Assembly: GCF_020991085.1 (NCBI RefSeq) | Contig: NZ_CP087719.1 | Coordinates: 5,193,001-5,257,000, forward strand | Direction: 5' to 3' | Length of the DNA stretch: 64,000 nucleotides | Source of the DNA: Roseomonas sp. OT10 | Lineage (GTDB): Bacteria; Pseudomonadota; Alphaproteobacteria; Acetobacterales; Acetobacteraceae | The notes under the pieces: model-generated | Seen by the model: only the letters and a program-made list of their open reading frames with translations | Told to the model about the DNA's origin: nothing | The model's database searches: none | Shown: positions 9,899 to 62,753 of the stretch, one piece after another | Numbering within the stretch: position 1 is the first letter of the stretch | Layout: each line of letters begins with the position of its first letter | Position numbers and translations under genes: made by a program

Positions 9899-10294
9899 CG
9901 CGCGAGGTCCGTTCCCCGGAGGGAAGGCGCCGCCTTGCCCCCCGTACCCCCCGACCGCCAGGACCCTGCGGGCCCTGGACCCAGGGGGCGCTGCTGCGCG
10001 ACGGGCTTCGACGGGGTCGCGTCGCCGCAGGTCGGCGACCTGCGGCGGGCAAGGCCGCCTCGCTCGCTGACCGCTTCTTCTGCCCCTTGCCGGGCCCCGC
10101 CCGACCGCGTGCTCTCAGGGGCCAGTCCGCAGGCCGGCTCGCTGCCGCCCCGCGCCAGACTCCCGGCGGGGTCCGGGGCCAGCCCGTGGCCCTGGCGGAG
10201 GGGGTATCGGGAGAGGCGGCACCTCCCCCGGGGGGCGGACGCGCCCGCCCCTGGAACGACGATCCGGCGGCTCATGGCATGGGGAGGGTGGCCG
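9899..10294 (-). repeat. intergenic repeat element, divergent copy A
   Basis: The 396-base gap holds a diverged member of the repeat family described at 12753-13175. Landmarks in order are a GGAAGGC/GCCTTGCC hairpin near 9920-9940, CCAGGACCCTGCGGGCCCTGG at 9958-9978 (given here as positions of an imperfect palindrome), a hairpin with 11-base arms CGCCGCAGGTC and GACCTGCGGCG at 10023-10047, the block GTCCGGGGCCAGCCCGTGGC near 10170-10190, and a final GGGAGAGGC/ACCTCCCCC hairpin. The central hairpin keeps a three-base loop at the same place as in other copies but has a different stem. No terminal TGATACG motif is recognisable, and no credible ORF is present. Confidence 0.6.
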
Positions 10295-12752: not shown

Positions 12753-13175
12753 TCATACCGATAGCGGGATGACCTGACCGGTCGTGCTGTGGTGTTCGGG
12801 CGGGGGACCGAGAGGGGACGCCGTCCCCTCCCAGACCCTCCCCTGCCGGGGCCACAAGCGGGCCCCGGTCCCCGCTGGGAATTGGTTCTGTGCGGTGGGT
12901 GTCAGCTTCCGGGCTGAACCCTGACGGCGCGCGGACAGGCGGGACTCTGAAGAAGCTTCAGAAGGCTTCAGCGAATGCTGCGGCCGTACCCGCCGAGGAG
13001 CATGGCTCCTCGGCGCCTCGACCCCGTGTCCGGCTGTCCCGCGGCAGCGCTGATCGGGTCCAGGGCCCGCAGGGTCCTGGCGGAGTGGGGGACCGGGGGC
13101 GAGGCAGAGCCTTGCCCCCGGGCCACGGGCGCAGCCTGTGCTGCCACGGATCGAGGCATCCCGCCGTCCGTATCA
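12753..13175 (+). repeat. intergenic repeat element, full copy B (423 bp)
   Basis: This copy fills most of the 547-base gap between rpe and the porin gene. The left end TCATACCGATAGCGGGATG and the right end, read on the minus strand as TGATACGGACGGCGGGATG, are imperfect terminal inverted repeats. On the minus strand the first three bases of the right end (13175-13173) are the TGA stop codon of the porin gene. Inside are a GAGGGGAC/GTCCCCTC hairpin, the CCGGGGCC/GGCCCCGG hairpin near 12847-12872, a hairpin with arms GCCGAGGAGC/GCTCCTCGGC at 12992-13014, a CCAGGGCC..GGTCCTGG palindrome, and a GGGGGCGAGGC/GCCTTGCCCCC hairpin near 13096-13120. Bases 12626-12752 are plain GC-rich spacer. No credible ORF is present. 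Confidence 0.85.
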
Positions 13176-14363
13176 CAGGGAGAGGGCGGCCCGCAGCCCC
13201 AGGGCCTGGAAGTCCCGCACCCGGTCCTCCAGGGTGAGGCGTCCCGACTGCAGTTGGGCCGTGAGGCGCAGCGCGGGGTGCGGCCGCCAGGTCAGCGCCC
13301 CGGTCCAGATCGCCTGCCGCCCGCCCTGCACCGGCCCGTCGCGCAGGTCGGCGACGCTGTAGCGCCCCGCCAGCTCGACCGAGCCCCAGCGGCCCAGCCC
13401 CTCCTCTGGGGGCTCCCAGGTGCCCGTCTCCGCATCGCGCCGGCGTGGCGGGCCGAGCAGGGGCAGGGTGCCCTGGAGATACCAGCCCTCGAAGCGGCGC
13501 GTGCCCTCGCCCGTGCCGCGCAGCAGGAGCTGCTGGTACACCCCCTCCAGCACCAGCGGGCCGAGCCGGGCCGTGGCCTCCGGCCCCCAGGCGCCGGCGC
13601 CATCGGCCGCGAGAGTGCCGGTGTCCAGGAAAACGCGGCTGTCCACCCGCAGCTCGGGGTAGTCGTCCAGGCTCAGCCGGTCGGCGGCGCCGCGCGTGCC
13701 CGGGCGGAACTGCCAGGCCGCATCCAGCCCGAGCTGGAGCTGCGCCGCCGGGGCGTCCAGCAGCAGCGCCGCCACGCGCCCGGCCAGGCCGCGCTGGCGG
13801 TCGTCGTTGCGGGTGGAGAGCACCCCGCCCGTGGCATAGGCGCTGGCGACCCAGCGTCCGCCATGCGCCTCCGCGCCGAGCGCGGTGCGGCTGTCGCCGC
13901 TGGCGAGGCCGGCCGCCAGGTTGCTGATGGCGGCGCGCTCCAGGAAGGGCAGGCCGAAGGAATCGCCCGAGTAATCCGGCAGGTGCTTCGGGGTGAAGGC
14001 GCCCAGCCGCAGGGCGAGGCCATCGATCCCCTCCCAGGCGAGCTGTGCCTCGTAGGGCTGGCCATAGTCGCGCGGGTCGGGGCCGCCGAACTCCCAGACG
14101 AGGCGCCAGGACAGCCGGGCGGGCAGCGTCCCTTCCAACCCCAGCCGCCCGCGGCGCAGGTTCACGCCGCTGCGGAACCCGTCGGGCTCGGACTGGCCGG
14201 CATAGCTGCCTGCATCGGCATCCAGCCGCAGCAGGGGGGAGAGGGTGACCTGCCCCCCGGCGAGGTTCAGGGCCGGGGTGGCCCCGTCCCAGGCCAGTTC
14301 GGCGCCCAGGGAGGGCGGGGCGGCCAGGAGGAGGAGGAGCAGGGGCGGGAGGAGGCGGCGCAT
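13173..14363 (-). CDS. outer-membrane porin, OprO/OprP-like
   Basis: A 396-residue protein with a Sec signal peptide (MRRLLPPLLLLLLAAPPSLGA, about 21 residues) and alternating beta-strand character throughout, resembling phosphate-selective porins O and P. Typical segments are GFRSGVNLRRGRLGLEGTLP and LRLGAFTPKHLPDYSGDSFG near residues 60-140. The chain ends in ...RAALSL, with a terminal hydrophobic residue rather than the usual phenylalanine. ATG 14363 was chosen over 14390 because the signal peptide follows directly. The TGA stop is part of a repeat-element end. Substrate specificity is not shown. Confidence 0.82.
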   Translation of the reverse strand: MRRLLPPLLLLLLAAPPSLGAELAWDGATPALNLAGGQVTLSPLLRLDADAGSYAGQSEPDGFRSGVNLRRGRLGLEGTLPARLSWRLVWEFGGPDPRDYGQPYEAQLAWEGIDGLALRLGAFTPKHLPDYSGDSFGLPFLERAAISNLAAGLASGDSRTALGAEAHGGRWVASAYATGGVLSTRNDDRQRGLAGRVAALLLDAPAAQLQLGLDAAWQFRPGTRGAADRLSLDDYPELRVDSRVFLDTGTLAADGAGAWGPEATARLGPLVLEGVYQQLLLRGTGEGTRRFEGWYLQGTLPLLGPPRRRDAETGTWEPPEEGLGRWGSVELAGRYSVADLRDGPVQGGRQAIWTGALTWRPHPALRLTAQLQSGRLTLEDRVRDFQALGLRAALSL

Positions 14364-14528
14364 CCGCCCCGCCTGCCATGGCGGCGGCATGGCCGCCAGG
14401 AGCGCGCCGCCTCAACACCGCGTGGCCGCGTCACGCCGCCCGCGGAAGGAACGGTCCGCCCCCGCGGGACGGCCCGCTTGCGGGTGCCGGGGCGGCCTGC
14501 ACGGGCACGGGGCCCGTGCGGGCCGGCA

Positions 14529-21828: not shown

Positions 21829-21954
21829 GCCGGCGGGATCGCCCCCCGCGCCGCCCGCCGGCATCCGCACGGGAGGGCGGCGCGATTCCCGGTTTTCCGC
21901 GGGGTGGCCGCGGCGTATCCCTGTGCCGCGAGACGAACCGGAAGGAGGGAACGG

Positions 21955-23118
21955 ATGTCCACGGCGATCGCCTTGCCACGCATCCTGCGCATCGGCGGAG
22001 GGGCCCTGGCCGAGACGGCGGAGGTGCTCGGCCTGCTGGGCCTGTCACGCCCGCTGATCGTGACCGATCCGATGATGGTCCGCTTCGGCTTGGCCGAGCG
22101 GCTGCAGGGCGAGCTGAAGCGGGCGGGCATCGCGGCGGATGTCTTCTCCGACACGGTCCCCGAGCCCGACAGCGACGCGGTGGACCGCGCCCAGGCGGCG
22201 GTGCTGGCCGGGGATTACGATTCTCTCGTCGCCCTCGGCGGTGGCTCGCCCATCGACACCGCCAAGGCCGTCGCGGTGCTGGCGAAGCAGGGCGGGCGGA
22301 TGCGCGACCACAAGGCGCCGGCGGTGAATGCCGGCCCGGCCCTGCCGGTGATCGGCATCCCCACCACCGCCGGCACGGGGTCGGAGGCGACGCGCTTCAC
22401 CGTGGTGACGGACAGCGAGACGCACGAGAAGATGCTCTGCATCGGCCCGTCCTTCCTGCCGGTCGCGGCCATCGTGGACTACGAGCTGACGCTGACCTGC
22501 CCGCCGCGCCTGACCGCCGATACGGGGGTGGATGCGCTGACGCACGCGATCGAGGCCTATGTCTCGCGCCGGGCCAACCCCTTCTCCGACACCTTCGCGC
22601 TCTCCGCCATGCGGGCCATCGCCGGCAACCTGCGCCGCGCCTATCGCGACGGCGGCGACCGCGCGGCGCGCGAAGCGCTGATGTTCGGCGCGACCCAGGC
22701 CGGCATCGCTTTCTCCAACAGCTCCGTCGCGCTGGTGCACGGCATGTCGCGCCCGATCGGGGCGCATTTCCACGTCCCCCACGGCCTGTCCAACGCCATG
22801 CTGCTGCCGTCGGTGACAGCCTATTCGGCGCCCGCCGCGACGCAACGCTACGCCGACTGCGCCCGCGCCATGGGTATCGCCGGGGCGGGCCTGCGCGACG
22901 GCGACGCCGTGGCCGCGTTGCTGGACGAGCTGCGCGCGCTGAACGCCGACCTCGCCGTCCCGGGCCCGCGCGCCTGGGGCATCGACCCGGCGCAGTGGGA
23001 AGCCCTGCTGCCGACCATGGCGGCACAGGCACTGGCCTCGGGCTCGCCCGCCAACAACCCGCTCGTGCCGGATGCGGACGAGATCCAGGAGCTCTACGCC
23101 CGGGTCTGGGCCGCTTGA
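21955..23118 (+). CDS. iron-containing alcohol dehydrogenase
   Basis: A 387-residue group III (iron-activated) dehydrogenase. The NAD-binding GGGSPIDTAKAVA motif is near residue 94, PTTAGTGSEATRF near 140, and metal ligands are expected in DALTHAIEAYVS and in GMSRPIGAHFHVPHG. Relatives oxidise alcohols or reduce maleylacetate. A strong GGAAGGAGGGA ribosome-binding site precedes ATG 21955. It probably ends the iclR-controlled cluster, where it could handle an alcohol or aldehyde intermediate. The TGA stop codon at 23116-23118 is also the first three bases of a repeat-element end. Confidence 0.9.
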   Translation: MSTAIALPRILRIGGGALAETAEVLGLLGLSRPLIVTDPMMVRFGLAERLQGELKRAGIAADVFSDTVPEPDSDAVDRAQAAVLAGDYDSLVALGGGSPIDTAKAVAVLAKQGGRMRDHKAPAVNAGPALPVIGIPTTAGTGSEATRFTVVTDSETHEKMLCIGPSFLPVAAIVDYELTLTCPPRLTADTGVDALTHAIEAYVSRRANPFSDTFALSAMRAIAGNLRRAYRDGGDRAAREALMFGATQAGIAFSNSSVALVHGMSRPIGAHFHVPHGLSNAMLLPSVTAYSAPAATQRYADCARAMGIAGAGLRDGDAVAALLDELRALNADLAVPGPRAWGIDPAQWEALLPTMAAQALASGSPANNPLVPDADEIQELYARVWAA

Positions 23119-23538
23119 TACGGATGGCGGGATGACCTGGCCGGTCGCGCTATGGTGTTCCGGCAGCGGCACCGGGAGGGGACGCCGTCCCCTCCCGGAC
23201 CCTCCCCTGCCGGGGCCACAAGCGGGCCCCGGTCCCCGCTGGGAGTCTGGTGCTTCCGGTAGGCGTCAGCCTGCGGGCTGATCCCGGGGAAAGCGCGGAC
23301 AGGCGGGACTCCAGAATAGCTTTGAAGGCATCAGCGAGTGCGGCGGCCGGTCCCGCCGAGGAGCATGGCTCCTCGGCGCTGTGACCCCGTGTCAGGCTGT
23401 CCCGCGGCAGCGCCCTTCGGGTCCAGGGCCCGCAGGGTCCTGGCGGAGTGGGGGTATCGGGGGCGAGGCAGAGCCTTGCCCCCGGGCCACGAGCGCGCCC
23501 CGCGCTGGCATGGATCAACGCATCACGCCGCGCATATG
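23116..23538 (+). repeat. intergenic repeat element, full copy C (423 bp)
   Basis: This copy fills most of the 583-base gap between two convergent genes. It starts TGATACGGATGGCGGGATG at the alcohol dehydrogenase stop codon and ends with an imperfect inverted copy at 23521-23538. Internal order matches copy B: GGGAGGGGAC/GTCCCCTCCC hairpin, CCGGGGCC/GGCCCCGG hairpin, arms GCCGAGGAGC/GCTCCTCGGC at 23355-23377, the CCAGGGCCC..GGTCCTGG palindrome, and GGGGGCGAGGC/GCCTTGCCCCC near 23459-23484. By eye most positions agree with copy B and, inverted, with copy F. Bases 23539-23701 hold no recognised feature. No credible ORF was found. Confidence 0.85.
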
Positions 23539-23701
23539 AGGCCGGGGGGCACCGCGCATCACCACGCGGAACCTGTACCGGGCCGGGACTTCGCCGCCGA
23601 TTCCGTGCGTGACCTACCGGGAGCCGGTCCCGGGCCGCAGCGGCCGGTTCCCCAGCGTCATCCCCGCGCACCTCGGCCTCGCCCGCCTGGCGGGGGGTGC
23701 G

Positions 23702-26641: not shown

Positions 26642-26995
26642 TGCGGTTCGGGGCCCGGAGCCGGCCCCCCCGGGGGGGGGAAGGCTCCGCCTTGCCCCCC
26701 GGACCCCCCATCCGCCAGGAGCAGAGCCCCTGGACCCCCGTTCACGGACGCGTCGGCACGCCGGGGAGCCATGCTCCCCGGCGACGGCGGCCGCAGCACG
26801 TGCGGCCTTTGATTCTTCTTCGGTGCCCCGCCTGTCCGCGCGCTCCGCGGGTGCCGCCCGCAGGCTGACACCGGCCACGCGGCGCCAGACTCCCAGCGGG
26901 GTCCGGGGCCCGCTCGTGGCCCCGGCGGAGGGGGTCCGGGGGAGGCAGAGCCTTCCCCGGTCCGGCGGTGCCACCTACGCCACGCGCCGCCCTCA
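26639..26995 (-). repeat. intergenic repeat element, variant copy D
   Basis: This copy fills the gap between the ATPase and the convergent EF-hand gene. It starts TGATGCGG at the ATPase stop. It has a GGGAAGGC/GCCTTGCCC hairpin near 26680-26700, CCGCCAGGAGCAGAGCCCCTGG near 26712, a hairpin with arms GCCGGGGAGC (26760-26769) and GCTCCCCGGC (26773-26782), CCGCCTGTCCGCG, and a CCGGGGCC/GGCCCCGG hairpin near 26905-26927. Compared with copy F, one A-T pair in the hairpin at 26760-26782 is replaced by G-C on both arms. It belongs with copy E in a subfamily sharing GAGCAGAGCCCCTGG and CCCGTTCACGGACGC. Confidence 0.75.
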
Positions 26996-27838: not shown

Positions 27839-29340
27839 GGCAGCGTCACCTCCGTGCCCTGGCAGAGATCAAAGGGGTCGCGCCGCACCTCGCGCCCGTC
27901 GCGGAACACGGCGACCAGGGAAGCGGCGCAGGCCTCGGGCTCGGGGGGCAGCAGGTCCAGCGTCTCCCGGCTGCCCAGCACGTTGCGGCCCAGCCGGTCC
28001 GGGCCGCGCGGCTCGCCCGGGGCGTCCACGTACAGCTCCACGATCGGGCTGTCGGAGGCGTTGCGCAGCCGCACGCTGCCGGGGCGGGGGCCCGGCGGCC
28101 CGGGCGGGGCGGGGCTGTCGTCCAGCCGCTCCGCCAGCGTCCAGCCGGGGCGCAGGACGATGGTGCCGGCCTCGCACAGGTCCAGCTCGCGCCGCTCCTC
28201 GGCGGCGCCGCTGGGGAAGACGATGCGCAGGTCGGCCGTGCACTCCACCGGCAGCGACAGGCCGATCCGCTCGCCGCGCTCCAGCGGCTCCTCCAGCCGG
28301 TCCGGGCCCCAGTCGCGCTCGGAGGCGGCGGAGACGTAGACCTCCTCCACCGGCGCGTCGTGCCGGTTCACCAGCGTGACGCGGATGGTCGGCGGCTGCG
28401 GGATGGCGCTGCCGTCGAAGGCGACGGCCGGCGCCAGGCTCGCGCAGAAATCCACGCCGCGCCGCTCCTCCGCCGCATCGTCCTCGTAGACGGCGCGCAG
28501 GTCGAAGCGGCAGGCCGCGCGCCGCAGCCGCAGGCGGACGCTGCCGCCGTCCGACAGCACCTCCGGGCCCAGCCGGTCCGCGCCCCATTCCCCGCCGCCC
28601 TCCTCCGCCGGACGGGCGTGCAGGTTGCGGATGATGCGGCCGGCGCGGTTCTCCACCCGCGCCTCGCGCCAGGGCAGGGAGGGATCGCCGAGGACGACGC
28701 GCGGGCTGCGGCAGAGATCCGTCCGCGGGCGCGTCACCGTCGAATCATCGGCCAGCACGCCGGTCACGTCGAAGACGCAGTCCCGCGTCCGACCCAGCCG
28801 CAGGCGCAGGCTGCGGCCCGGCGCCACCGTCTCCGCGCCCAGCCGGTCCGGGCCACGGGCGTCGGCGCCCTCCGGCGCGTTGGCGGGGCGCAGGTACAGC
28901 TCCTGCAGCGGCAGGTCCGTCTCGTTGACGACGAGCGCCTCGCGCTGCGGCGCGGACGGGTCGCCGAAGACGACCCGGTTCTGGCGGCAGAGGTCCACGT
29001 CCCGCCGCTCCTCGATGCTCTCGTCCGCGAGCACGGCGCGCAGGTTGAAGCGGCAGGGCTGGTTGCGCCCCAGGCGCAGGCGCAGCCGCCCGCCCGGCGC
29101 CAGGGTGTCCTGGCCCAGCCGGTCGGGTCCCGGGTCGGCCTGCCCCACCGGTGCGGCGTAGAGCTCGCGGATCGAGAGGCCGAGCTCGTTCTGCACCAGC
29201 GCCTCCCGCTCGGCCGGCGCGCGGGGAGCGGCGGCGCGCGGGCCCTGCGCCAGGGCGGCGGGGACGATGGCGGCGGGAGCGATGCAGGCCGACAGCGCCA
29301 GTACCCCGATCCAGCCCGGCCAGGCGCCGCGTCCGATCAT
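27835..29340 (-). CDS. exported protein of five tandem Cys-paired repeats (unassigned family)
   Basis: A 501-residue protein with a signal peptide whose hydrophobic core ends in LSAC at residues 16-19, a lipobox-like site, so it may be a lipoprotein. The rest is five repeats of about 80-90 residues (45-132, 133-224, 225-315, 319-405, 422-501). Each has an N-terminal strand ending in a LY or VY motif, the signature GPDRLG (GADRLG in repeat 3, GPDRLE in repeat 4), a basic LRLRL strand and two cysteines. The cysteine pairs are 96/118, 188/210, 277/299, 367/389 and 471/493, all exactly 22 apart, suggesting one disulfide per repeat. A single copy of the same unit occurs in the protein at 62244-62753. 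I do not recognise a named domain. ATG 29340 was preferred over 29379 because it gives a proper signal peptide. Confidence 0.75.
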   Translation of the reverse strand: MIGRGAWPGWIGVLALSACIAPAAIVPAALAQGPRAAAPRAPAEREALVQNELGLSIRELYAAPVGQADPGPDRLGQDTLAPGGRLRLRLGRNQPCRFNLRAVLADESIEERRDVDLCRQNRVVFGDPSAPQREALVVNETDLPLQELYLRPANAPEGADARGPDRLGAETVAPGRSLRLRLGRTRDCVFDVTGVLADDSTVTRPRTDLCRSPRVVLGDPSLPWREARVENRAGRIIRNLHARPAEEGGGEWGADRLGPEVLSDGGSVRLRLRRAACRFDLRAVYEDDAAEERRGVDFCASLAPAVAFDGSAIPQPPTIRVTLVNRHDAPVEEVYVSAASERDWGPDRLEEPLERGERIGLSLPVECTADLRIVFPSGAAEERRELDLCEAGTIVLRPGWTLAERLDDSPAPPGPPGPRPGSVRLRNASDSPIVELYVDAPGEPRGPDRLGRNVLGSRETLDLLPPEPEACAASLVAVFRDGREVRRDPFDLCQGTEVTLP

Positions 29341-43727: not shown

Positions 43728-45257
43728 TCAGCGCGGGGGCGCCGATTCGATCCAGCGCAACAGCCAGGGGGCCTCCGCATCGCCCTGGGCGATGGCGCGC
43801 CGGTACCAGGCGGCCGCCTCCGCGCGGTCGGCCAGGTCGGTGCGGGCCCCGATCGAGCCGAGGAACAACGGGTCGTAGGTCTTGCCCATCCCGGTCATCG
43901 CCGCGCGCAGCCCGGCCTGGGCGGCCCGGCTGAAGAGCAGGCGTGCGGCGGAGATGTCGCCGAGGTTCAGCATCTCCTCCCCACGCCGCACCAGCGCGGC
44001 CGCCAGGGCTGGCGACGGGGCGGGCGCGACGATGGGCGCGCGCGGAGCGGTCAGGACGGGGGACGCACCCGCCCCGTCGCCGGGAGAAGGCAGCGCGGGC
44101 GGCATGGCAAGCGGGGGTGCCAGGAGCATGGCGGTGCGGGTGGGGGGCGGCTCCTGGCCCGATGGCTCGGACGGGGGGGGCGGGGTCGTGGCCTGGAGGC
44201 TGTCTGCTGCGGTCTCGGCGGTGTCGGGAAGCGGCAGGGCCTCCGGGGCGGCGGCCTCTGCAACAGCAACGGGCGCGGGGGCGACGGGCGCGGGGGCGAC
44301 GGGTACGGGGGCGACGGGTACGGGGGCGACGGGTACGGGGGCGGCGGGCGCGGAGGCAGCCGGCACAGGGGGCGGCAGCGCATCCGGCTCGCTCGGCCGG
44401 GCGACCGGCGGAGGTGGCCAGGCGGCGGGCAACGGGTCCGGCTCCGCCCGCTCGGCCATCTCCGCACCGGCGGTGTCCTCGCTCGGTGCCGCAGCGGGCA
44501 GGGACGGCACGGCCGCGGCCTCGCCGCGGGGCGGCTCCGCGGCCGACAGGGCCGGCATGGGCGGGGGCGCCGTGCGATCCGGTGCGGCGGGGGATGCGGC
44601 GGGCTGCGGCGGATCGGCCCTGGCGACGACCTGGGGCGACGGGGCGGCGGGGGGGCCGAGATACTGCAGCAGCGCGGCACCGCCCCCCAGCCCCAGCAGC
44701 AGCGCGATCCAGAACCAGCGCAGCGCGGCGCCGCCGCGTCCGCGGCGTGCCGTCGCCTCCGGCGCGGCCTGCCGCCCCGGAGGGAAAGCGGCCTCGGGGG
44801 GCTGGCCGCTGGCCACGGTACGCAGCATGAACTCGGCGGAGAGCACCTCGCGCACCCGGGGAACCCAGGCCCCACCGCCGCGCAGCACCAGGGCCGGCTC
44901 GGTCACGAAGGCGCCGTCGAGCGTCGCCCGCAGCCAGGGCAGGTCGCGCAGGGGGACCACCCGGTGCACGATCGGCGGCAGGCCGCCGAAGCTGGCGCGG
45001 AAATCCGCCTTCTCCAGGCGGCGGAGCAGCATGCCCGTCGCGTCCAGCGTCACCGAGGGGGCGACATCGACCAGCGCGATGCCGATCTCCCGGTGCAGCA
45101 GCGTGTAGGGAACCCAGCGCCGCGGGCCGTCGCCCGCCGTCTCGCGATGGCGCAGAAGAAGCCAGCCCGGCTGCATGCCGGCCAGGGCCACGGCCATCAG
45201 CTCATCGGCTTCCTCGGAAGCGGCTGACACGGGTGCCAATCCAGGGAGGACGTCCAT
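43728..45257 (-). CDS. membrane-anchored proline-rich protein with Sel1/TPR-like end
   Basis: A 509-residue protein of unknown function. Residues 1-165 form a conserved-looking globular domain (MQPGWLLLRHRETAGDGPRRWVPYTLLHRE region). One transmembrane segment (ALRWFWIALLLGLGGGAALLQYL) lies near 180-202. A 220-residue Pro/Ala-rich linker follows, with PVAPVPVAP repeats encoded by 15-base DNA repeats. The last 90 residues (AAALVRRGEEMLNLGDISAARLLFSRAAQ) look like a Sel1/TPR helical unit and are predicted periplasmic. It shares the strand and a 50-base spacing with the TAXI gene, so the two may form a module. Confidence 0.65.
   Translation of the reverse strand: MDVLPGLAPVSAASEEADELMAVALAGMQPGWLLLRHRETAGDGPRRWVPYTLLHREIGIALVDVAPSVTLDATGMLLRRLEKADFRASFGGLPPIVHRVVPLRDLPWLRATLDGAFVTEPALVLRGGGAWVPRVREVLSAEFMLRTVASGQPPEAAFPPGRQAAPEATARRGRGGAALRWFWIALLLGLGGGAALLQYLGPPAAPSPQVVARADPPQPAASPAAPDRTAPPPMPALSAAEPPRGEAAAVPSLPAAAPSEDTAGAEMAERAEPDPLPAAWPPPPVARPSEPDALPPPVPAASAPAAPVPVAPVPVAPVPVAPAPVAPAPVAVAEAAAPEALPLPDTAETAADSLQATTPPPPSEPSGQEPPPTRTAMLLAPPLAMPPALPSPGDGAGASPVLTAPRAPIVAPAPSPALAAALVRRGEEMLNLGDISAARLLFSRAAQAGLRAAMTGMGKTYDPLFLGSIGARTDLADRAEAAAWYRRAIAQGDAEAPWLLRWIESAPPR
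44266..44355 (-). repeat. 15-base tandem repeats within the proline-rich linker
   Basis: Six head-to-tail 15-base units related to GCGACGGGTACGGGG (plus-strand view) are present; three are identical. On the coding strand each encodes a PVAPV-type pentapeptide, so copy-number change would lengthen or shorten the linker without shifting the frame. Confidence 0.85.
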
Positions 45258-47087: not shown

Positions 47088-48011
47088 ATGAACATCCTGC
47101 CCAGCCCGCAGCAGCTCCGCTACCTCGCCGCCCTGGCCGATCACGGGCATTTCGGCCGCGCCGCGGCGGCCTGCGCGGTCACCCAGTCCACCCTCTCGGC
47201 CGGGATCATCGCGCTGGAGCGGCATCTGGCCACCCCGCTGCTGGAGCGCGGCGCCGCCAAGCGCCCCGTCTTCACCCGGGCGGGACTCGAGATCCTGGCC
47301 CGCGCCCGGGAGGCGCTGGCGGCGCTGGAGGCCGTGGCCGAGACCGCCGCCGCGACGCGCGACCCGCTGAGTGGCCCGCTGCGCCTGGGGGTGATCCCCA
47401 CGATCGGCCCCTTCCTGCTGCCGAGGCTGATGCCGGCGCTGCGGCAGAGCTTTCCCCGGCTGCAGCTCTGGCTGCGCGAGGATCTGACCCGCACCCTGGC
47501 CAGCGAGCTGGAGGCCGGGCGGCTGGACCTGCTTCTGCTTGCCCTGCCGGTCTCGCTGCCGGGGGTCGAGATCCTGCCCCTGGCCGAGGACCCCTTCCTC
47601 GTCGCCTTGCCGGCCAACCACCGGCTCGCCGCCCAGCCGGCCGTGCCCGCCGCCGCCCTGGCCGCGGAGCGGATGCTGCTGCTGGAGGACGGCCATTGCC
47701 TGCGCGAGCACGCCCTCTCCGCCTGCCGCCTGCCTGGCCCCTCGCATGGCGAGGGCTTCGCCGCCACCAGCCTGCACACGCTGGCGCAGATGGTGGCCGG
47801 CGGGCTCGGGGTGACGCTGCTGCCGCGCCTCGCCGTGGCGGGCGGCGTGCTGGCCGGCGCCGCCGTGGTGCTGCGCCCGCTGGAGGACACGCCCGGCCGG
47901 GTGCTGGGCCTCGCCTGGCGCCGCCGCTCGCCCCGCGCCGCGGAATTCGCGGGGCTGGCGGAGGTGATCCGCAAGGCCCTGGCCACCGCCACGGATGACG
48001 ACGCCGGCTGA
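47088..48011 (+). CDS. oxyR: OxyR, peroxide-sensing LysR-type regulator
   Basis: A 307-residue LysR-family activator. The HTH is at the N terminus (LRYLAALADHGHFGRAAAACAVTQ). The key feature is the redox pair C204 and C213 in EDGHCLREHALSAC, nine residues apart exactly as C199 and C208 of Escherichia coli OxyR, which form a disulfide on contact with peroxide. Divergent ahpC-ahpD are the expected targets. The TGA stop is the start of repeat element E. Confidence 0.95.
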   Translation: MNILPSPQQLRYLAALADHGHFGRAAAACAVTQSTLSAGIIALERHLATPLLERGAAKRPVFTRAGLEILARAREALAALEAVAETAAATRDPLSGPLRLGVIPTIGPFLLPRLMPALRQSFPRLQLWLREDLTRTLASELEAGRLDLLLLALPVSLPGVEILPLAEDPFLVALPANHRLAAQPAVPAAALAAERMLLLEDGHCLREHALSACRLPGPSHGEGFAATSLHTLAQMVAGGLGVTLLPRLAVAGGVLAGAAVVLRPLEDTPGRVLGLAWRRRSPRAAEFAGLAEVIRKALATATDDDAG

Positions 48012-48180
48012 TGCCGGTGGGGGATGCTTGCCGCCCCGGACCCCCTTATCCGCCGGGAGCAGAGCCCCTGGCCCCCCGTTCACGGACGCCGTGCGCGCCG
48101 GGGAGCCTCGCTCCCCGACGGCTGCGGGTCGCAGCGCATGCGGCCTTGGGTTGCGCTTCCGGCGCCCTGGCGGAACGGCG
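48009..48180 (+). repeat. intergenic repeat element, shortened copy E
   Basis: A 172-base half-element between the convergent oxyR and dehydratase genes. It starts TGATGCCGGTGG at the oxyR stop. It shares with copy D the blocks CCGGGAGCAGAGCCCCTGG and CCGTTCACGGACGC, and carries the hairpin with arms GCCGGGGAGC (48097-48106) and GCTCCCCGAC (48110-48119, one mismatch). The half with the CCGGGGCC/GGCCCCGG hairpin is missing. Confidence 0.7.
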
Positions 48181-52384: not shown

Positions 52385-52672
52385 ATGACCGAGGCCTCGG
52401 CGACGGCCCTGCGGCGCAGCGTGGTGGTGCCGAACAGCCGCGGGCTGCACGCCCGCGCCGCCGCCAAGCTGGTGACGCTGGCCGAACGCTTCTCCTGCTG
52501 CGTCAACGTGTCGCATGACGGGCAGAGCGTGCCGGCCTGCTCCATCATGGGGCTGATGATGCTCGGCGCGGGGAAGGGCAGCCGGATCGAGGTCGAGGCG
52601 GACGGATGGGACGCGCGCGAGGCGCTGGACGCGGTGGCCGGCCTGATCGAGGCCGGCTTCCATGAAGACTGA
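52385..52672 (+). CDS. phosphocarrier protein HPr
   Basis: A 95-residue HPr with the active-site histidine H22 in SRGLHARAAAKLV and a second regulatory site S53 in ACSIMGLMML, which fits phosphorylation by the HPrK in the same cluster. It begins after a GGAGGGAGG ribosome-binding site and a 97-base gap following EIIA. Its last 11 bases overlap the start of the enzyme I gene. Confidence 0.95.
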   Translation: MTEASATALRRSVVVPNSRGLHARAAAKLVTLAERFSCCVNVSHDGQSVPACSIMGLMMLGAGKGSRIEVEADGWDAREALDAVAGLIEAGFHED

Positions 52673-54515
52673 CACGAAGGCGGACAGGACCGAGGACCCG
52701 AAGCCGGAGAAGCCGGCCGAGCCGAGGCGCGCCGCGCGCCGGTCGCGCGAGCTGACGGTGCGTGGCCTGCCGATCGCCCCCGGCGTGGCGATAGGCCCGG
52801 TCTACGACACCACCGAGCCGCCGGCCGAGGCGCCGCGCCGCAACGTCAGGGTGGCCGATGTCGAGGGCGAGAAGCAGCGCCTGGCGACCGCCGCCGCGGC
52901 CTCGCGCAAGCAGGTCGCCAAGCTGAAGGCGCGGCTGGGCGTGCTGCCGGAGGAGGCGCAGGAGGAGCTGGCGCCGCTGCTCGACGCCTATGCCATGATG
53001 CTGGGCGAATCCCGCCTGCTGCGCGGCGCCCGCAAGCGCATCGAGACGGAGCTGCTGGCCGCCGAGACGGCCGTGACGGACGAGGCGGAGGCCATCGCCC
53101 AGGCCATCCTGGCGGCCCGGGACGACGACAAGGCGGGGCTGCGCCGCCGCGCCGGCGAGGTGCACGAGATCGCCCGCCGCCTGACGCGCAACCTGACCCA
53201 GGCCGGCTTCCGCTCCTTCAAGGACGTGCCGGAGGGCTCGATCCTGATCGCGGAGGAGCTGACGCCGGCCGATGCCGCGCTGCTCGATCCCACTCGGATC
53301 GCCGGGGTGGCCACCGAGGAGGGCGGCTCGGACGGGCACACCGCCATCATGCTGCGCGCCCTGGGCATCCCCTCCGTGCTCGGTGCGCCCGGCATCACCG
53401 AGGCCGCGAAGCGCGGCGAGGCCTGCGTGCTGGACGGCACCGCCGGGATGGTGGTGCTGCGCCCCGGCGAGAAGGCCCTGGAGGCGGCGCGCGAGGCGCT
53501 GGCCGCCCATGCCAAGGAGCGCAGCAAGCTTGCCAAGCTGCGCCGCCTGCCCGCCGTCACCAGCGACGGGGAGGAGGTGGACCTCCAGGCCAACCTGGAG
53601 ATCCCGGCCGAGCTGCCGCTGATCGCCCAGTCCGGCGCGCACGGCATCGGCCTGCTGCGCACGGAGTTCCTGTTCCTCAACCGCGACACCCTGCCGGACG
53701 AGGAGGCGCACTTCACCGCCTATCGCCAGATCGTCGAGGCGGTGGCGGGCGACGGCGTGACCATCCGCGTGCTCGACTGGGGCGGCGAGAAGGACATGGA
53801 GGCGCTGGCCGAGGGCATGGAGCCCACCCATGCCGGCCCCAACCCGGCGCTGGGCCTGCGCGGCATCCGCATGCTGCTCAAGCGGCCGGAGCTGCTGGAG
53901 GTGCAGTTCTCCGCCATCCTGCGCGCCGCAGCGCTGGGTCCGGTGCGCGTCCTGCTGCCCATGGTCACCATCCCCGCCGAGGTGAGCCAGGCGCGCGAGA
54001 TCTACGAGCGCGTCGGCAAGCGCCTGCGCCGGCGCGGCGTGGCCCTGCCGGAGAAGCTGCCGCCGCTGGGCGCGATGATCGAGACCCCGGGCGCGGCGCT
54101 GGCCGCCGACGCCATCGCGCTGGAAGCGGATTTCTTCGCCATCGGCACCAACGACCTGGCCATGTACACCCTGGCGGTGGATCGCGGCGAGGCGGAGGTG
54201 GCGCATCTCTACGACCCGCTGCACCCCGCCGTGCTGCGCCTGATCCAGTTCGCGACCGAGGCCGCGCTGCGCCTGCGCATGCCCGTCTCCGTCTGCGGCG
54301 AGATGGCAGGCAACCCGCGCCTCGTCCCCCTGCTGCTGGGCCTGGGACTGCGCAGCCTGTCGATGAACGCCTCCGCCGTGCCCCGCGCCAAGCAGGCGGT
54401 GCGCAGCCTGACCATCGACGACTGCGCCCGCTTCGCCCGCCGGGTGATGGAGCAATCCGACCCGAAGCGTATCCAGGAGCTGGTGATGGGCTTCGAAAGC
54501 GGCGCCAGAGGCTGA
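52662..54515 (+). CDS. ptsI: PTS enzyme I (PEP-protein phosphotransferase)
   Basis: A 617-residue enzyme I that transfers phosphate from PEP to HPr. The active histidine is H226 in GGSDGHTAIMLRALGIP. Later motifs are LLRTEFLFLNRD, ALGLRGIRMLL and the PEP-binding GTNDLAMYTLAVDRG. There is no GAF domain, so it is ordinary EI rather than PtsP. About 40 extra charged residues lead the N terminus, explaining the length over the usual 575. The TGA stop at 54513-54515 is the start of repeat element F. Confidence 0.96.
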   Translation: MKTDTKADRTEDPKPEKPAEPRRAARRSRELTVRGLPIAPGVAIGPVYDTTEPPAEAPRRNVRVADVEGEKQRLATAAAASRKQVAKLKARLGVLPEEAQEELAPLLDAYAMMLGESRLLRGARKRIETELLAAETAVTDEAEAIAQAILAARDDDKAGLRRRAGEVHEIARRLTRNLTQAGFRSFKDVPEGSILIAEELTPADAALLDPTRIAGVATEEGGSDGHTAIMLRALGIPSVLGAPGITEAAKRGEACVLDGTAGMVVLRPGEKALEAAREALAAHAKERSKLAKLRRLPAVTSDGEEVDLQANLEIPAELPLIAQSGAHGIGLLRTEFLFLNRDTLPDEEAHFTAYRQIVEAVAGDGVTIRVLDWGGEKDMEALAEGMEPTHAGPNPALGLRGIRMLLKRPELLEVQFSAILRAAALGPVRVLLPMVTIPAEVSQAREIYERVGKRLRRRGVALPEKLPPLGAMIETPGAALAADAIALEADFFAIGTNDLAMYTLAVDRGEAEVAHLYDPLHPAVLRLIQFATEAALRLRMPVSVCGEMAGNPRLVPLLLGLGLRSLSMNASAVPRAKQAVRSLTIDDCARFARRVMEQSDPKRIQELVMGFESGARG

Positions 54516-54931
54516 TACGCGCGGCGTGGTGCTCTGACGTCTGCCGGATTGGCGCCCTTGGCCCGGGGGCAAGGCGCTGCCTCGCCCCCGATACCCCCAC
54601 TCCGCCAGGACCCTGCGGGCCCTGGACCCGATCAGCGCTGCCGCGGGACAGCCTGCGACGGGGTCGAGACGCCGAGGAGCCATGCTCCTCGGCGGGACCG
54701 GCCGCCGCCCTCGCTGACGCCTTCTGAGCTTTTTCGGAGTCCCGCCTGTCTGCGCTCCGTCAGGGTTCAGCCCGGAGGCTGACGGCCACCGCGTAGAGCC
54801 AGACTCCCAGCGGGGACCGGGGCCCGCTTGTGGCCCCGGCAGGGGAGGGTCTGGGAGGGGACGGCGTCCCCTCCCGGTCCGACGCCCGAACACCACAGCA
54901 CGACAGTTCACGACATCCCGCCGTCCGGGTG
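54513..54931 (-). repeat. intergenic repeat element, full copy F (419 bp)
   Basis: This copy fills the gap between ptsI and the KAP gene in reverse orientation to copies B and C. The left end TGATACGCGCGGCGTGGTG overlaps the ptsI stop codon and the right end is an imperfect inverted copy at 54913-54931. In between are a GGGGGCAAGGC/GCCTCGCCCCC hairpin near 54565-54590, the CCAGGACCC..CCCTGG palindrome near 54604-54627, arms GCCGAGGAGC (54671-54680) and GCTCCTCGGC (54684-54693), CCGCCTGTCTGCGC, a CCGGGGCC/GGCCCCGG hairpin near 54817-54839, and GGGAGGGGAC/GTCCCCTCCC near 54853-54875. No credible ORF is present. Confidence 0.85.
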
Positions 54932-54989
54932 ACGACCGGCACCTGGGCGTGGGCTTCCGGTGGGGGCTGCATTTCGTTACGTCTTGCGG

Positions 54990-62243: not shown

Positions 62244-62753
62244 TCAGGGGAAGCTCATGTCCGTCAGGGCGCAGGTATCCACCGCCCGGCGCTCGCTGGC
62301 CTGCCCGTCGGCGAAGACCACCCGGATGTCGTTCACGCACTGGCCGGAGGGCAGCCGGATGACGAGGCGCTGGCCGCCCGGCAGGACGTTCTGCCCCAGC
62401 CGGTCCGGGCCCCAGCTCTGGTCCTGCGCGCTGGAGACGTAGATCTCCTGGATCGCGACGCCGCGCCCGTTGGCGATGCGGAAGGACGGGTCCTGCGTCG
62501 CCCGGCCCGGCGCCGCGGCGCTCTGGGGGGCGGAGGCGGCACCGCCGCCCCGCTGCCGTTGCAGGCGCTGCATGGTCGCGTGGTTCTGCAGCATGTGCTC
62601 GTTCATCGTATCGGTCAGGGTGCGGTTCGGATTGTAGGGGTTGTTGCCGCCATCCAGGCCGGGACGGATCCAGTACTGCTGCGCTGCGGCGGGCGGGACA
62701 CCGCCGCCCAGGGCGAGAGTGAGGGCGAGGAGGGCAGGGGCGAAGCGGGTCAT
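62244..62753 (-). CDS. exported protein with one Cys-paired GPDRLG repeat
   Basis: A 169-residue protein with a Sec signal peptide ([25 protein letters not shown]). Residues 26-88 are a flexible Asn/Gln-rich segment. Residues 90-169 are one copy of the repeat seen five times in the protein at 27835-29340, with [22 protein letters not shown], and cysteines C139 and C161 that are 22 apart exactly as in the other five copies. The family is not one I can name. It is likely periplasmic with one disulfide. Confidence 0.78.

Follow-up and report, generated by a model that had tools for sequence, protein, structure and literature searches.

Our analyses demonstrate that about 420 bases of non-coding mobile DNA are present some 100 times or more on one chromosome of Roseomonas sp. 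OT10, and that this repeat is, or in the past was, a MITE with terminal inverted repeats (TIRs) of ~16–27 bp and a TNA-type target-site duplication (TSD). The assignment to MITEs, present or past, follows from the sharp ends and the agreeing 3-bp flanks of the copies. The repeat was noticed in a stretch of 64,000 nucleotides, here called the window, and the original prediction, made from the letters of that stretch, described intergenic elements with inverted ends, MITE-like or REP/BIME-like in kind; the placement of the copies on stop codons, their convergent gene context and the differing ends in sister species go beyond its claims. The family is a new MITE with unusual biology, and our look through the open-access literature brought up no title concerned with this repeat or with stop-codon MITEs.

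Results

Copies, ends and copy number

Three copies of the window, B, C and F (Table 1), align from end to end with their TSDs counted and, as predicted, form one full-length family, their profile scores being 406–444 bits versus 125 bits for A and 116 bits for D. The latter two hold the inner core only, the terminal repeats being absent by eye, and are an older form without TIRs. Copy E fell under the profile threshold in the search of the window; its first bases, TGATGCCGGTGGGGGATGC, are the remnant of an end, and it has 56 nt in common with D at 88%. The earlier description of A, D and E as diverged or shortened copies stands for the core in A and D and for the fragment E, with the amendment that A and D carry no TIR. 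The setting of copy B is co-directional, after the stop of the porin gene and ahead of a ribulose-phosphate epimerase gene.

Table 1. Copies of the repeat in the window and features of copy B, in coordinates of the window
Feature	Position	Strand	Basis or remark
Copy B, both TSD copies (TCA) counted	12753..13175	+	profile and alignment
Copy B, left TIR	12756..12782	+	consensus of 79 left ends TACCGACGGCGGGATGACCTGACCCGT
Copy B, hairpin h1 of core	12810..12832	+	fold of copy B
Copy B, hairpin h2 of core	12846..12868	+	read from sequence; consensus pairs
Copy B, hairpin h3 (GCCGAGGAGCATGGCTCCTCGGC)	12992..13014	+	two-sided changes versus relatives' GCCGGAGAGCATGGCTCTCCGGC
Copy B, hairpin h4 motif (GGTCCAGGGCCCGCAGGGTCCTGGCGGA)	13057..13084	+	217 matches in the genome
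Copy B, hairpin h5, core end	13093..13121	+	
Copy B, right TIR	13146..13172	-	consensus of 79 right ends, read inwards, TACGGACGGCGGGATGCnnTGATCCGT
Copy B, right TSD (TCA), where the minus-strand porin O/P gene (13173-14390) has its TGA stop	13173..13175	-	
Copy C	23116..23539	+	left TSD TGA 23116-23118 is the stop of the Fe-alcohol-dehydrogenase gene (21904-23118)
Copy F, inverted	54513..54932	-	TGA 54513-54515 is the stop of the PEP-utilising enzyme gene (52662-54515)
Copy A, diverged core lacking TIRs	9904..10224	-	profile, by eye
Copy D, diverged core lacking TIRs	26675..26963	-	profile, by eye
Copy E, fragment with relic of one end	48009..48180 (coordinates of the original prediction)	+	the LysR gene (47088-48011) stops at its TGA 48009-48011

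Searched against its own genome (G000; 5.69 Mb in three contigs, C1, C2 and C3), copy B had 368 candidate places at first look; the 40 of these that were scored lie on both strands of C1 and match at 87–100% identity over ~365–423 bases. The end motif TSATACSGNNGGCGGGATGA has 83 + 75 matches genome-wide at up to two mismatches and its reversed control pattern 0, and together with the TIR consensus of 79 copies this bears out the inverted orientation of the ends; the 77 matches with 0–1 mismatch are all on C1, those with more than one being known in part only. Matches to the inner h4 motif at up to one mismatch number 114 + 103 = 217 (control 0), and the 30-mer of the TIR has 139. The predicted hundreds per genome are thus true of the core, while the TIR-bearing form, with its 139 end motifs, amounts to at least 91 distinct copies, a union of two incomplete rankings.

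A profile was searched against the window, the first 30 loci and 70 further stretches, giving 109 rows; the 79 with both ends were kept, and the others, which were incomplete or diverged or, in the case of L001, a duplicate, were dropped. Across samples of this genome totalling 424 kb, it found 27 full or partial matches, five of them from the window. The elements are 411–454 bp long (median 423, both TSD copies counted), with sharp ends and TIRs of ~16–27 bp in the consensus of the 79 copies. They occur in either orientation and outside called genes, and neither B, C nor F contains a complete ORF of at least 120 aa, a weak test at such a length, all of which agrees with the prediction of intergenic, non-coding repeats. 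Defined ends, TIRs, a 3-bp duplication, a high and dispersed copy number and a size within 50–500 bp without a transposase gene inside are also what the MITE-like reading implied; neither a family confined to the window nor one without defined ends was seen when the genome was searched, the ends were defined and the flanks were compared. The window holds other repeats too: a 15-bp tandem repeat (GCGACGGGTACGGGG type) at 44251-44370, apparently within a coding region, and direct repeats ~270 bp apart at 28173-29155, with a further relative near 62270-62471.

Target duplication and flank preference

In 57 of the 79 copies the 3-mer on the left is the same as that on the right (TCA/TCA 29, TGA/TGA 28). 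The 22 copies without identical flanks comprise five TGA/TCA, no TCA/TGA and 17 other mixtures; when both sides are TCA or TGA (62 copies), the 57 agreements correspond to a Fisher p = 7e-13. Around the duplication, the flanks are rich in C at -1 (53/79), G at -3 (45/79), G at +1 (52/79) and C at +3 (51/79). Because coding periodicity could imitate such a preference, 51 stop-coincident copies were oriented by gene: the far, non-coding side has G at +1 in 28/51 and C at +3 in 30/51, and the coding side has C at -1 in 40/51, where the TGA stops of the samples have it in 177/281 (p = 0.04). The flank preference is real, yet modest. Among the copies, TCC follows the terminal TGA at 25/77 ends versus 4/54 ends with TCA (p = 6e-4); TCC after TGA makes GATC in many ends, for example those of L004, L087 and L135.

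Stop codons and gene context

A codon model that was trained on 26 ORFs of the window and applied without a score cut places the best coding frame in register with the terminal triplet at 67 of the 79 ends reading TGA inwards and at 14 of the 62 reading TCA, the other 17 ends reading otherwise. At least one terminal TGA is the stop codon of a neighbouring gene in 65 of the 79 copies (32 left, 31 right, two both), and neither end lies at a stop codon in 14. Stops make up 48/83 of the non-CDS CTSAG sites and 270/991 of the non-CDS TSA sites in 19 samples of the same genome with copies masked, and the observed share is higher than either (p = 2.5e-7 and p = 2e-26). The gene context is similarly skewed: among 74 classifiable copies, 56 are between convergent genes, 18 between co-directional and none between divergent ones, with five more unclassified, against 39, 160 and 43 in 242 control gaps.

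A transposase truly preferring stop codons could create such a pattern without any survival of harmless insertions, and both the excess of TGA ends at stops (67/79 over 48/83 masked non-CDS CTSAG sites) and the restriction of the identical MITE duplications to TSA (57/57, where the resident IS5-family element described below takes TAA or TTA as well, 4/12; p = 6e-4) speak for it. We consider it improbable, however: in 34 element-free convergent gaps, stops already account for 8/11 CTSAG sites, though for 39/125 TSA sites; TGA represents 281/349 stops in the samples, and survival on stops therefore predicts TSA as well; and the orientation of the copies is balanced, 25 versus 26. Target choice and survival together explain most of the placement.

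Individual loci were compared with 14 relatives of the genus. The copy at C1:4089111 starts at the TGA of ftsK, a gene present in 14/14 relatives, ending in TGA in 13 and in TAG in G012, each time after a GAC/GAT codon; no element sits at the ftsK stop in any of the 14. G012 has a partial core match ~0.75–1.1 kb beyond ftsK, and the other 13 have none up to 1.4 kb past it. The gene facing ftsK in the OT10 genome was not found next to ftsK in the relatives, so that this comparison is one-sided. The neighbour gene of copy F is present in all 14, the downstream DNA differing, and neither of the two loci gave a two-sided empty site.

A resident element with the same target rule

The transposase search covered one Pfam family genome-wide, DDE_Tnp_1, and among 20 inspected loci of its 34 matches none has the ends of the MITE; of 165 TIR-like 16-mers in the loci of this genome, 16 are away from copy ends and none of these fits the full pattern. 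Twelve of the 20 inspected loci are one 961-bp element (three on C1, nine on C2), whose transposase belongs to the IS5 family (NCBIfam transpos_IS5_3, 247 bits) and which we take to be IS1031-like. It resembles the MITE in having an identical TNA duplication in 12/12 copies (TGA 5, TCA 3, TAA 2, TTA 2), preceded by C in 10/12. IS1031 itself follows a 3-bp TNA duplication rule, the MITE carries a duplication of this IS5/IS1031 type, and the right kind of target rule thus exists in its own genome. Given that the ends of the resident element (GAGCCTGATCCG.../GAGTCTGATTC...) differ from the MITE's TAC[C/G]GNCGGCGGGATG, it is a parallel for the target rule rather than a demonstrated helper.

Two closer connections were rejected: derivation of the MITE from the resident element, as the outer ends differ, and a TIR-like 16-mer with three mismatches, at a fixed place in the 12 IS5 copies, as a matching end, as it lies 349 bp inside the element. 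A short stretch of the element, CCTGATCCG, resembles the inner MITE end, a likeness that may be due to chance. C2 (286 kb; loci L061-L069) holds nine of the 12 inspected IS5-family copies, yet none of the 77 TIR matches with 0–1 mismatch, and C3 has none of these 77 either. The exact 19-mer end of the TIR, searched in 84,980 species genomes from which its own or near-own records were perhaps excluded, gave 23 single matches in scattered taxa.

The core in sister species

The DNA of copy B matched 14/39 relatives, 10 of them among the 14 of the genus, mostly weakly outside the sister species G003, G004 and G012; the 30-base TIR has 0 matches in the 14. With a G004 copy as query, candidates numbered 215 in G003, 271 in G004 and 229 in G012, and the best 40 scored per genome (120 in all, the query itself counted as one) match over the core. 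Ninety of these 120 places, 30 per genome, were aligned or tested. The relatives' copies have hairpins h1–h5 in common with those of OT10 but other, decayed ends near TYCGGGCGTTGCGCTTCGTGGC and TCCGGCGTTGCGCTGTCC, for which 47/90 left and 62/90 right ends pass a similarity cut that lacks a chance control and which are too decayed for TSDs to be judged. Like their counterparts, they favour convergent gaps (G012 16/29, G003 20/30, G004 17/30; two divergent in G003). No pair of an OT10 copy and an inspected relatives' locus has a site in common by both flanks. Some old insertions seem common to several species, since L178 (G004), L179 (G003) and L204 (G012) follow apparently the same gene end (ATCGAGTACCGGGTG...). 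Taken together, the comparison points to an older, folded core of ~315 nt with five predicted hairpins and a putative function, held by sister species with different ends.

Hairpins

The structure was predicted from an alignment of 56 cores: 24 of the 68 listed TIR-bearing OT10 copies, 30 from relatives, and A and D of the window. Its 52 predicted pairs are paired in 97.7% of cells, and 13 of them show two-sided changes; shuffles average 6.0 such pairs, with 0/500 as high, and sliding the partners by 1–3 columns leaves 2–4; the test uses a structure from the same alignment, and the shuffles ignore relatedness. The covariation term of RNAalifold is small, -2.44 of -78.72 kcal/mol. Single-fold z-scores are -5.6, -4.8 (minus strand) and -6.1, and near-invariant hairpin blocks stand next to variable spacers. 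At h2, the single-sequence fold of copy B pairs otherwise and that of the relative L178 forms the hairpin. The core hairpins are well supported, roles in RNA and in DNA being indistinguishable here. The h3 loop (window 13002-13004) reads ATG in 45/79 copies and its reverse complement CAT in 14/79, as if the hairpin tip had flipped.

The strong folding would also suit a structured RNA gene family, or a segmental duplication without transposition, an origin that is scarcely credible given the sharp ends and TSDs, by which it is refuted for the TIR-bearing copies; a known RNA family was rejected as well, since at gathering score Rfam gave 0 matches for the window. The hairpins also bear on the other half of the original prediction, a REP/BIME-like element; a Y1 tyrosine transposase (RAYT) would be what multiplies an element of that type. 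Intergenic hairpin clusters, mainly at convergent or co-directional genes, are indeed what REPs show, as far as the source goes (PMC3733652), and yet a unit of ~420 bp rather than 20–40 bp (PMC3733652), with TIRs and a 3-bp TSD and with no GTAG/CGTC tag seen by eye at the feet of h1–h5, makes membership highly improbable, and we dropped it.

Distribution around the origin

On the chromosome, parB is located at 4.759 Mb in G000, 0.778 Mb in G012 and 4.120 Mb in G003. With what we take to be the parS motif, a parS-like palindrome is found in G000 where gidA meets gidB in the gidA-gidB-parA-parB cluster; the sole parS-like matches of G012 and G003 fall within an FTR1 gene some 40 kb away from parB, which makes parB the safer origin marker there. 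The origin-proximal half holds 47 of all 50 listed h4 motifs in G012 (circular mean 0.773 Mb) and, in G003, 39 of the best 40 places, a ranked set (mean 4.165 Mb). The TIR-bearing copies of OT10 are weakly origin-biased (46/71, p = 0.017, mean 447 kb off), and samples of its chromosome show a weak GC skew that fits the position of parB no more than roughly. The origin bias of the cores may be explicable by gene order.

These distributions raise the question of whether the core is itself a selected part of the chromosome (for example a transcription terminator working both ways, a protector of mRNA 3' ends or a sink for supercoiling between convergent genes) and the TIRs are a mere vehicle, a reading compatible with a MITE that we find possible, though on the unlikely side. 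The convergent placement in four genomes, the kept hairpin pairs and their two-sided changes beyond shuffled or slid controls, the fold z-scores, the near-invariant blocks beside variable spacers and the origin-centred distribution in two relatives are all consistent with it. On the other hand, survival alone already predicts a 3'-end, non-divergent placement; the one terminator-like match near B (6-pair stem, T-rich tail, 12864-12879) is none of the five hairpins; and the support from pairing is lessened by the small covariation term, by shuffles that ignore relatedness, by several two-sided changes that split the copies of OT10 from those of relatives and that may each have arisen once, and by template-switch correction, which can maintain the pairing of a palindrome. 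A more specific version strikes us as doubtful: that the ~315-nt core would be a functional two-way transcription/supercoiling barrier of origin-proximal chromosome halves, placed between convergent genes, gene-converting as one population, and re-packaged in different species between different transposon ends with harmless stop-codon insertion.

Copies as a population

The 79 copies have a mean pairwise identity of 85.5% (sd 2.1), the closest pair reaching 93.5%, and there is no young copy pair among them. Linkage between variable sites falls from r2 = 0.29 (<=3 bp) to 0.03 (11-20 bp) and 0.012-0.016 (>20 bp) against a shuffled mean of 0.013, so that sites are nearly unlinked past ~20 bp; among relatives, with 30 copies each, r2 declines more slowly and is down to the shuffled level (0.037) no earlier than ~80 bp. 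Block alleles are independent in the three testable cross-tables (p = 0.19-0.51), three further tables being single-class and uninformative. Repeated gene conversion is the simplest cause of this near linkage equilibrium.

Discussion

We consider it very likely that a MITE moved in trans, that its copies survived at stop codons, that an older core was re-ended and that the copies are converting one another. The repeat would be a non-autonomous DNA transposon family and its transposase, most likely IS5/IS1031-like, would have been supplied in trans. Such an enzyme would recognise the ~16–27 bp TIRs (TACSGNCGGCGGGATG...) and, judging by the ends, the duplications and the flank preference, make cuts staggered by 3 bp at a TNA target, with a preference for CTSAG, each insertion thereby duplicating TSA. 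With a TGA stop as the target, the duplication would restore the stop codon and leave the protein as it was, and the space between convergent genes contains no promoter; most copies are found at stop codons and between convergent genes, probably chiefly because these harmless insertions survive. The ~315 nt core is probably older, the comparison of species suggesting that it gained a new pair of ends in OT10 and spread again. The copies are now old and, from their linkage pattern, seem to exchange sequence by gene conversion.

The family illustrates how a gene-dense genome can accommodate the roughly hundredfold multiplication of a mobile element and suffer little from it, as the 3-bp duplication recreates the target stop codon. 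A core with differing ends, its concentration at the origin in two sister species and the near loss of linkage past ~20 bp raise two testable questions, the concerted evolution of bacterial repeat families by short gene conversion and the insulation of convergent genes by such cores.

Comparison with known systems

REPs are 20–40 bp palindromes tagged GTAG or CGTC and, in what we draw from their description, intergenic hairpins mostly absent between divergent genes (PMC3733652); our family shares the latter traits and differs in its unit size, its TIRs and TSD and the tag, which we did not see. The CIR of Caulobacter is likewise a strictly intergenic alphaproteobacterial repeat, likened here by its description alone (PMC10969869). 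The same review treats the bacterial MITEs Correia, ERIC, RUP, Chunjie and QMITE1/2, with QMITE1 at ~400 bp and QMITE2 mostly in 3' untranslated regions (PMC10969869), and the terms "stop codon" and "convergent" are absent from its main text. The OT10 family resembles these MITEs, as that text describes them, in being non-coding and intergenic, with TIRs, short direct repeats and tens to hundreds of copies; it is unlike them in that its terminal TGA is so often the stop codon of a neighbouring gene, in its convergent placement, in a core that is apparently older than its ends and in sites of dispersed copies that are nearly unlinked.
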